Shown: positions 1 to 30,978 of the stretch, one piece after another
Layout of the letters: the number at the start of each line of letters is the position of its first letter
Numbering within the stretch: the first letter of the stretch is position 1
Assembly: GCA_902588255.1 (NCBI GenBank)
Contig: CACIOK010000001.1
Coordinates: 43,141 to 107,140 of the forward strand
Direction: 5' to 3'
Length of the DNA stretch: 64,000 nt
Source: an uncultured Pelagibacteraceae bacterium
Lineage (GTDB): Bacteria > Pseudomonadota > Alphaproteobacteria > Pelagibacterales > Pelagibacteraceae
Notes under the pieces: model-generated
Databases searched by the model: none
What the model was told of the DNA's origin: nothing
The model's input: the letters and a program-made list of their open reading frames with translations, nothing else
Translations under genes and position numbers: made by a program

Positions 1-400
1 ACATATTCAACAGAGCTACATCAGTTGTAAGTTTTGAAATAAATTTACCAGTATGCATTTTATCAATATACTGAGTGTCTGAATAAATTAGAGATTTAAT
101 CATATCTTTTTGAACACTTGTTTTAACTTCTTCTCCAACATTTATCATAAGTAATTTGGCGATATAAACAGACAGCCCCTTTATGGCAAAAGCAACTATG
201 ATAAAAAAAGGTATTAAATAAATTAGAGTTTTATCCTTTTCTATAAAAATTTTTTCAATAGCAGGATCTAATAAATATGCAATAGCCGAAGTACTGCCTG
301 CAACCAGGAATGAAAGTAAAATGGCTAATAAAATTTTTTTTGCATGCTTAAGTGTGTAATCTTTATAAAGTCTTTTTATGATATCGATATCTTTAAACAT
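1..400 (-). CDS. ABC transporter transmembrane/ATP-binding protein, MsbA-like (N-terminal part, runs off window)
   Basis: Reverse-strand reading from ATG at 400: MFKDIDIIKRLYKDYTLKHAKKILLAILLSFLVAGSTSAIAYLLDPAIEKIF... resembles type-I ABC exporter TM domain; open to window edge. Confidence 0.75.
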   Translation of the reverse strand, partial: MFKDIDIIKRLYKDYTLKHAKKILLAILLSFLVAGSTSAIAYLLDPAIEKIFIEKDKTLIYLIPFFIIVAFAIKGLSVYIAKLLMINVGEEVKTSVQKDMIKSLIYSDTQYIDKMHTGKFISKLTTDVALLNM

Positions 401-1265
401 TAAAAAGCTTTCCAATTAAAATATTTATAAAAATCAAAAATCCAAAAAAATTGTTACTTTTAAAAATTTTTAAACAATTATCAGTATCATTTAATCTGAA
501 TTTTTTTATTTGATAAAAAAATAAATGAAAAATAGGAACTGATAAGAAAAAATAAAAAAAATAACTAAATTTCATATATATCCCTACCGTTAGTATAGAT
601 AACATAAATATTAAATAACATATTATTAAAAATAAATTTGGATTCTTTTTAAATTTTATAGAAGTTGATTTTACACCTATTATTTCATCATCTTTTAAGT
701 CTTGATATCCATATATTGTGTCGTAACCAAGTGTCCAAAATATGGCTCCTAAATAAAATACTATAGGTATGATATCTAAATTATTTTTTACAGCTACCCA
801 GCCAAGAATTAGACCATAGTTAAATGTAATTCCTAAAAATAATTGAGGCCAATAGGTAAATCTCTTCATCAAAGGGTAAGTAAAGGCTAAAGGCATAGAT
901 CCTAAAGCAAGTAAAATTGTGTAAATATTAAAATTAACTAATACTAGAAGAGCTAGCAAACATAGCATTGCAGTATATACCAAGGCTAATCTTATTGAGA
1001 TTTTTCCTGCAGCGATAGGTCTATTTTTGGTTCTTGAAACTTTTTTATCAAATTCTTTATCTGATATATCGTTTACTATACAGCCAGCTGATCTCATTAA
1101 AATTGATCCCAGCAAAAACAAAAATAGATAAAAAAAATAATTATCAAGATTATTTGTAAAATCAAATGCAATTGTTAGACCCCATGCGCAAGGCCAAAAT
1201 AACAGCATAAAACCTATTGGCTTTTTTAATCTTGTAAGTTCTATAAAAAGATTTAGCTGATTCAT
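393..1265 (-). CDS. ubiA: 4-hydroxybenzoate octaprenyltransferase
   Basis: UbiA family motifs (NDISDKEFDKKVSRTKNRPIAAGKIS; GYDTIYGYQDLKDDEIIGVKSTSIKF), multi-TM. Confidence 0.93.
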   Translation of the reverse strand: MNQLNLFIELTRLKKPIGFMLLFWPCAWGLTIAFDFTNNLDNYFFYLFLFLLGSILMRSAGCIVNDISDKEFDKKVSRTKNRPIAAGKISIRLALVYTAMLCLLALLVLVNFNIYTILLALGSMPLAFTYPLMKRFTYWPQLFLGITFNYGLILGWVAVKNNLDIIPIVFYLGAIFWTLGYDTIYGYQDLKDDEIIGVKSTSIKFKKNPNLFLIICYLIFMLSILTVGIYMKFSYFFYFFLSVPIFHLFFYQIKKFRLNDTDNCLKIFKSNNFFGFLIFINILIGKLFNV

Positions 1266-1308: not shown

Positions 1309-1722
1309 TTGATTCGTATGAATATAGATTATACCGTAACAGCTTTAATGTTTCCTGCTATACCATTGCTAATGAGCGTCTATAGCAACAGGTTTCACAC
1401 TCTTAGTAAATTAATAAGAGAGCTTCATGATGAACATGTTTATGAAAAGCATATACCCCCAGAATGGAAAAAACAGTTTATAAACCTTAGTAGCAGAATA
1501 TCAATTCTTAGATGGACAATAATGTTCGCTGCATTTGGTTTCTTATTCAATATGCTTACGGTCTTTGCTCTTTATCTTGATGAAGTATTTATAGCGAGAG
1601 TCATATTTGGATCATGCTGTTTATCTATGATAATTTCAATAATATTTTTTATCAGGGAAATTCAAACCTCAACTAATGCACTTAATTTGCATATGTCTGA
1701 CATGGATGTTAAAATAGATTAA
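1309..1722 (+). CDS. DUF2721-type membrane protein
   Basis: 137 aa, ALMFPAIPLLMSVYSNRFHTLSKLIREL N-terminus and TM segments typical of DUF2721 family. Confidence 0.65.
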   Translation: MIRMNIDYTVTALMFPAIPLLMSVYSNRFHTLSKLIRELHDEHVYEKHIPPEWKKQFINLSSRISILRWTIMFAAFGFLFNMLTVFALYLDEVFIARVIFGSCCLSMIISIIFFIREIQTSTNALNLHMSDMDVKID

Positions 1723-29253: not shown

Positions 29254-30323
29254 TTACTAGGCCTTAATCTTTGTCTTAATTCATCTATTGGCTTAAGTGA
29301 GTTTCCTGATCTATAATGCCAATATGTCCAGCCATTGCAACTTTCAGCACCCAATATTTTAGCAGCAATTTTATGAATAGAACCCTCAGACTTTTGGTAT
29401 TTAATACTTCCATCAACCATAATTTTAGCATTAACTTTTTCTTTTTGATCATATATTTCTGTACCTGGTTTAATGATACCCATTTCCACCAATGAGCCAA
29501 AAGGAATTCTAGGTTTGGATCGATTGTTTTGTAATGAGTCTAAATAGTTATCTTCTATTGGTTTTGTATTTTTAATTCTTATATTCGCAGCTTCAAAGTA
29601 ATTTTTTTCTTTCTCAATTCCATAAAAAATTCTCCCAAGTTTTTTTGCAACTACAGCGGTAGTTCCAGATCCTGAAAACGGATCTAAAATAAAATCATTT
29701 TTATTTGTAGAAGCCAAAAGTATTCTATGAAGCAATGCCTCTGGTTTTTGAGTGGAATGAACTTTCTTACCTTTTTTCTTTAATCTTTCATTGCCACCAC
29801 AAATAGGCAAACTCCAAGTTGATCTCATTTGAAGATCGTCATTTAAACATTTTAAAGATTGATAATTAAAAGTATATTTTGATTTTTCATCTTTAGAGGC
29901 CCAAATTAAAGTTTCATGAGCATTTGTAAATCTTGTTCCTCTAAAATTTGGCATAGGGTTATTCTTGTTCCAAATTACATCATTTAATATCCAAAAACCC
30001 AAATCTTGAATTTTTGCGCCAACTCTAAAAATATTATGATAACTACCTATAACCCAAATACTTCCATTTTTTTTTAAAATTCTTTTACATTCTGTAAGCC
30101 ACTTAATTGTAAAATCGTCATAAGTTTTAAAACTTTCAAATTTATCCCATTTATCATTAACTGCATCTACTTTAGATCTGTCGGGTCTAACTAATTTATT
30201 TTTTAATTGTAAATTGTACGGAGGATCAGCAAACACAAGATCAAAAGTTTCATCAGGAATTTTTTTTAATTCATTAAGGCTATCCCCATTAATAATTTTA
30301 TTTTTTAAATTTAAATTATTCAT
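29250..30323 (-). CDS. ccrM: CcrM-type adenine-N6 DNA methyltransferase (GANTC)
   Basis: [28 protein letters not shown], CcrM-type C-terminal domain ([11 protein letters not shown]...ELRQRLRP). Confidence 0.95.
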
Positions 30324-30340
30324 TTTATAAAAAACAATTA

Positions 30341-30418
30341 GACTCTAGCTTTGAGTCTCCGTCAACCTGAGATTGAATTAATTTGAGTCCTAATAGTTGT
30401 TTGAAATTTTATCGACTC
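30341..30418. promoter_or_regulatory. Cluster of four GANTC sites between rnhB and ccrM
   Basis: GACTC 30341, GAGTC 30353, GAGTC 30385, GACTC 30414. Confidence 0.6.
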
Positions 30419-30978
30419 AATATGTTGTATACTGGTTGAAATGTTTTTCTGTGGTGTTTTGTTACTCCAAATTTTCTAATGGATTTTAAATGTTCGTTTG
30501 TTCCATACCCAGCGTTTTTATCCCAATTGTAATTTTTATATTTTTTTGCCATTTTCGTTATCAAACGATCTCTAGATACTTTTGCTATTATTGATGCAGC
30601 AGAAATTTCAGGTATTTTTTGATCACCTTTAATTACATTTTTTATCTTATAATTTTGTAATTTTGGAACTTTATTTCCATCTATTAATACTAATTCAGGT
30701 TTTTTTTTAAGTTTTTTAATCGCTCTTTTCATAGCTAATAAACTTGCATTTAAAATATTTAACTTTTCTATTTCAATAATAGAAGCATAGCTAATAGACC
30801 AAAAAGAATTTTTTTTTATATATTTTTCTAAAATTTCACGTTTAGCTTTCGATAATTTTTTAGAGTCTTTAAGTTTTTTTTTGTTTATTTTTGTATTCAA
30901 TATTACAGCAGCAGCAAAAACAGGACCAATGAGACTACCTCTTCCCACTTCATCAACACCTGCTATAAGTTTCTTCAT
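30409..30978 (-). CDS. rnhB: Ribonuclease HII
   Basis: IAGVDEVGRGSLIGPVFAAAVIL, SIIAKVSRDRLI. Confidence 0.96.
   Translation of the reverse strand: MKKLIAGVDEVGRGSLIGPVFAAAVILNTKINKKKLKDSKKLSKAKREILEKYIKKNSFWSISYASIIEIEKLNILNASLLAMKRAIKKLKKKPELVLIDGNKVPKLQNYKIKNVIKGDQKIPEISAASIIAKVSRDRLITKMAKKYKNYNWDKNAGYGTNEHLKSIRKFGVTKHHRKTFQPVYNILSR

Follow-up and report, generated by a model that had tools for sequence, protein, structure and literature searches.

Two near-fixed GANTC sites in the putative ccrM promoter of SAR11 bacteria suggest methylation-gated control of ccrM

Two GANTC sites upstream of ccrM, the gene for the GANTC adenine methyltransferase, likely lie within a conserved sigma70-type promoter; the promoter-like geometry is seen in the sequences, and from it we infer promoter activity. 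We regard methylation-gated control of ccrM, probably via GcrA, as the best explanation of this arrangement (probability of roughly 0.7), its dependence on methylation and its sign being predicted rather than observed. The observations behind it are promoter-like geometry, conservation within SAR11 and across the class, a GANTC-type constraint at the spacer site (site 1), and the homology of CcrM and GcrA.

GANTC sites at the rnhB-ccrM locus

The window, the 64-kb stretch of DNA analysed here, comes from a SAR11-type genome (901,504 bases in 48 contigs, 73% complete) whose closest named relatives are uncultured Pelagibacteraceae. The ccrM product combines a methylase domain and a C-terminal RAMA domain with full-length similarity to Caulobacter CcrM (structure 6PBD; E = 6.6e-139; residues 9 to 354 of 357 covered); by these features it is CcrM, and GANTC methylation is assigned to it from homology. 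Its upstream neighbour rnhB lies on the same (minus) strand across an 85-bp gap, and the order rnhB then ccrM was found in 130 of 130 family loci (110 ccrM loci from a family search and genome collection, plus 20 obtained by coordinates). A contig titled "Parcubacteria group bacterium" (L055, NYYU01000038.1) carries a SAR11 rnhB-ccrM locus with 84% identity and is probably a mis-binned metagenome contig.

The original prediction described four GANTC sites here, and all four are present in the window sequence (Table 1), three of them inside the rnhB-ccrM gap and the fourth within the final codons of rnhB. It also took one site per 350 to 400 bp as the expected frequency, which holds for shuffled sequence but not for the real genome, where GANTC is depleted: the window has 98 sites per 64 kb versus 160 in shuffles, and a 464-kb genome sample, made up of the window and 20 further stretches, has one per 694 bp. 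Because of this depletion, the local enrichment is larger than first stated. The ccrM upstream region was the single case of four sites within 78 bp in the 464-kb sample, and the supposed rarity of equally dense clusters thus held up. By itself, GANTC density is weak, suggestive evidence for function, and we rejected it as proof, given that 0.12 such clusters are expected per 464 kb (Poisson) and that two of six control palindromes also show one 4-in-78-bp cluster in the same sample. The next densest cluster, four to five GANTC in ∼115 bp, lies within an amidinotransferase-like coding sequence (L269, 11763 to 11877). Three GATTC fall within the 57 bp from 1259 to 1315 of the window, where a UbiA-like gene (393 to 1265, minus strand) and a small membrane-protein ORF (1309 to 1722, plus strand) start divergently.

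Table 1. Features of the rnhB-ccrM locus in window coordinates
Feature	Position	Strand	Evidence
ccrM, GANTC adenine methyltransferase, 357 aa	29250..30323	-	ORF; Pfam N6_N4_Mtase + RAMA
RF01784 bablM match, here read as ccrM promoter	30320..30389	-	59.6 bits vs gathering score of 38
Predicted transcription start, 5-8 nt before ATG	30328..30331	-	Caulobacter RpoD 34-37 bp rule (PMC4287350)
Putative -10 TCTAAT, 17-bp spacer	30337..30342	-	Invariant in 114 genus sequences; activity predicted
GANTC site 2 (-22 site, GACTC), overlaps upstream edge of -10	30341..30345		98/99 distinct genus sequences
GANTC site 1 (-34 site, GAGTC), in -35/-10 spacer	30353..30357		90/99 distinct genus sequences; N varies
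Putative -35 TTGACG	30360..30365	-	TTGAC invariant in 114 genus sequences; recurs upstream of ccrM class-wide; activity predicted
TTCAATC block, left arm of imperfect dyad, possible operator	30371..30377	-	114 genus sequences
GANTC site 3 (-66 site, GAGTC), upstream of promoter core	30385..30389		62/99 distinct genus sequences; N varies
rnhB, ribonuclease HII, gene preceding ccrM	30409..30978	-	Pfam RNase_HII
GANTC site 4 (-94 site, GACTC), last codons of rnhB	30414..30418		70/99 distinct genus sequences; always GAGTC when present

A putative ccrM promoter conserved within the genus

Conservation, not density, is the strong evidence that the GANTC cluster is a real feature. A lack of conservation in relatives, which would have spoken against the original prediction, was not seen: each site is kept in most of the 99 distinct genus sequences (Table 1). 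The original prediction had treated the four sites as equals; only the two nearest ccrM have fixed promoter geometry. Site 3 has an accessory role at most, and the conservation of site 4, which is rnhB coding sequence and always GAGTC, is sufficiently explained by rnhB coding constraint. Sites 1 and 2 fall between the putative -35 and -10 of ccrM, within its likely core promoter. The -10 hexamer has an unusual C at its second position. Caulobacter RpoD promoters have their motif 34 to 37 bp before the start site (PMC4287350), and the 42 bp from the start of TTGAC to the ccrM ATG would thus imply a leader of 5 to 8 nt.

When 97 distinct genus promoters were aligned on TTGAC, the CAATC and GGTTGAC (GTTGAC plus one G) blocks were invariant, a GANTC stood at +8 or +9 in 88 of the 97, and GAGTCTAAT, beginning at +20, was invariant bar one change at its first base. 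By parsimony on the ccrM tree of 114 sequences, each column of GAGTCTAAT changed at most once, and third codon positions of ccrM changed a mean of 12 times. At site 1 the same tree gave 3 changes at G, 3 at A, 7 at N, 0 at T and 4 at C. That GA and TC are held while N is freer points to methylation and not to one fixed binding sequence; site 1 is indeed conserved as GANTC, with C, A, G and T all found at N across the genus. Site 2 lies within the invariant block, and judging from the alignment its GANTC is, within the genus, inseparable from the promoter sequence.

In 781 kb from 110 genus ccrM loci, GANTC followed TTGAC at +20 in 112 instances, and none of the other offsets between 10 and 25 occurred more than twice. 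No genome-wide regulon sharing the layout was found: TTGAC-N10-20-GANTCTA gave 5 matches in the genome versus 12 for its reversed control, and among 453 sampled gene starts ccrM alone had the two-site promoter. Upstream of the putative -35, six of the seven bases of TTCAATC are invariant in the 114 genus sequences, the remaining base having changed in two. Its imperfect dyad partner, GGTTGA (30361 to 30366), lies over the putative -35, and some regulator may bind this TTCAATC/GGTTGA dyad. In other SAR11 genera, a TTCAA-N7-TTGAA dyad lies close to the -10 or to the start instead; a search for a regulon with this dyad showed, in one variant, a slight excess of spacing 7 and no clear regulon.

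The promoter layout across SAR11 and the Alphaproteobacteria

Outside the family, TTGAC-N2-7-GANTC-N3-8-GANTC was found in 34 of 88 ccrM upstream regions across the class, compared to 0.01 expected from shuffles and 0 on the opposite strand. Of the 74 class-level regions having TTGAC, 36 have site 2 at +19 from it; where the -10 would lie, the hexamer is mostly CANNNT. Across 112 kb of class-level loci, the +19 arrangement turned up 17 times, each time upstream of ccrM. The N of site 2 varies across families while GA and TC stay. A sister family in the same order retains the class layout, and most other SAR11 genera retain one or both proximal sites; in the genus of the window, site 2 is at +20, one base off the +19 of most other families. 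Retention in a very reduced genome, which the original prediction had singled out, is therefore nothing special, since many alphaproteobacterial families share the layout. Its recurrence across so many of them probably reflects an old self-control switch.

Alternative readings of the conserved stretch

The stretch between rnhB and the methylase gene is also filed in Rfam as a structured RNA, RF01784 (bablM), from which it would follow that the ccrM leader encodes a regulatory RNA acting after transcription start. The covariance model does score above the Rfam gathering threshold (Table 1), Meyer et al. (2009; PMC2704228) proposed a structured RNA on the basis of SAR11 data, and the fold is weakly better than shuffles (z = -1.8). 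However, bablM was proposed as a less well supported candidate with a first stem free of mutations, and a search of the text of that paper found mention of neither GANTC nor CcrM. The first stem includes the TTGA of the putative -35; the second consists of the two GANTC palindromes, whose N bases the Rfam consensus leaves unpaired. We found no compensatory changes in 77 distinct sequences (rows with site 1 at +9 being in the right register for stem 2), and the N-N pair forms in just 42 of the 77. Covariation measures were no higher than in shuffles, in a test in which the +9 rows were out of register for stem 2. RNAalifold retained only the invariant stem, N bases pair in 9 of 34 class-level promoters and outer flanks in 3 of 34, and the predicted transcription start lies downstream of both stems. 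Promoter DNA fits better than RNA because the RF01784 stretch shows no covariation; why the stretch is conserved, why its spacing is fixed and how it is distributed outside SAR11 are all explained by a promoter but not by an RNA. We therefore consider an RNA quite unlikely. The listing of RF01784 as a structured RNA looks like a misreading, and the pairing evidence argues for re-examining and correcting the entry.

Pairing also bears on the 6-bp dyad AGACTC-N7-GAGTCT noted in the original prediction, which is present but lacks conserved pairing and is a by-product of two palindromes. Read as an intrinsic terminator or attenuator separating rnhB from ccrM, this hairpin has in its favor a stem with a T-rich tail in the window sequence (1 found versus 0.1 in shuffles), yet its middle pair is broken in 40 of the 89 genus sequences with both sites, the tail is missing in many relatives (e.g., L003 and L008), and transcription would stop just ∼17 nt before the ccrM ATG; such a role is very improbable, and RNA hairpin and terminator alike were rejected on pairing and covariation. 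It is more conceivable, but still unlikely, that the GANTC conservation is incidental to an ordinary strong promoter or to some regulator's site, with methylation playing no role. The inclusion of site 2 in a block invariant within the genus would suit such a coincidence, as would the invariant TTCAATC block, which suggests another regulator. Difficult to reconcile with it are the constancy of GA and TC around a variable N (within the genus for site 1, across families for site 2), the recurrence of two sites at near-fixed spacing in many families (34 regions against the 0.01 expected), and the overall depletion of GANTC in the window.

Regulators and methylation

Methylation-gated control of ccrM would call for a reader of the methylated promoter, and GcrA is the most likely one, as judged by analogy. 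In Caulobacter, GcrA is known as a sigma70-binding factor that drives methylated promoters, and YGAKTCG is reported as its extended motif. Of 118 family genomes, 107 encode GcrA, among them that of the window, whose protein matches both functional parts (DNA-binding and sigma-binding) of Caulobacter GcrA, and a GANTC lies between the predicted -35 and -10, as in GcrA-sigma70 promoters. The genus sites do not fit YGAKTCG: most share one of its three distinguishing positions, which is below background, whereas class-level site 2 has two or three of the three in 34 of 34 cases. The strict layout also occurs in several genomes that seem to lack GcrA, where a diverged GcrA may have been missed, and some SAR11 genera and several other families have GcrA but no GANTC in the promoter. 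In the window genome, the stretch examined upstream of gcrA contained no GANTC.

A search of SAR11 with one (Rhodobacterales) CtrA model returned distant response regulators only and no clear CtrA (best match, 139 bits versus a cut-off of 350), consistent with the reported absence of ctrA from Pelagibacter (Brilli et al., PMC2877005). The CtrA activation of a Caulobacter-type ccrM promoter has no clear counterpart here. GANTC is methylated in Pelagibacter, with 3,477 of 3,482 sites fully methylated in one culture of a genome other than that of the window (PMC9516812).

Proposed mechanism and relation to known systems

We propose that ccrM is transcribed from a promoter in the 85-bp gap, of sigma70 type (TTGACG, 17-bp spacer, TCTAAT), with two CcrM targets in its core: one in the spacer and, about one helical turn on, one overlapping the -10 at its upstream edge. 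CcrM would methylate its own promoter, replication would leave the sites hemimethylated, and CcrM would later restore full methylation, so that promoter activity could follow replication and the level of CcrM. GcrA, encoded in the window genome, would likely read the methylated promoter.

Caulobacter crescentus ccrM offers the closest parallel, with an orthologous enzyme and GANTC in the ccrM promoter (presence, not exact positions, being compared), and the gene's own methylation state most probably influences its transcription (PMC3973325; PMC2217572). It differs in being activated by CtrA (PMC2217572), of which no clear homologue was found in SAR11. In Caulobacter, promoters that carry GANTC between -35 and -10 make up a cell cycle class of their own (PMC4287350). 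The GcrA-sigma70 promoters, with ctrA P1 and mipZ among those bound by GcrA, resemble the SAR11 promoter in their sigma70 type and in this GANTC placement (PMC4287350), and the window genome encodes a GcrA with both functional parts. They differ in that the genus sites misfit YGAKTCG, which class-level sites fit better, and GcrA binding here is putative.

On balance, we lean toward a wider reading, in which the two near-fixed CcrM sites represent an ancestral alphaproteobacterial self-methylation loop without CtrA that has persisted in SAR11, where conserved GANTC promoters are very few, the bablM "RNA" being that promoter. With a near-fixed layout across the class, ccrM autoregulation would become a testable rule of general reach and not a detail of one model organism, and the layout suggests how an abundant ocean bacterium, apparently lacking CtrA, could still couple methylation to replication. 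An earlier survey held that methylation control cannot be derived from site counts (PMC2877005); unlike in that approach, the signal here is carried by site position rather than count.

Natural variants of the ccrM promoter

Six SAR11 loci (L163 to L165, L168, L169, and L174) have no GANTC in the ccrM promoter, as do several families outside SAR11. Others of the same SAR11 genera have ccrM and gcrA, and these promoters are natural losses. In many families (L181, L184, L222, L252, L255, L262, and others), TTGAC lies just 34 to 38 bp before the ccrM ATG, a distance pointing to a ccrM mRNA with little or no leader in those families.
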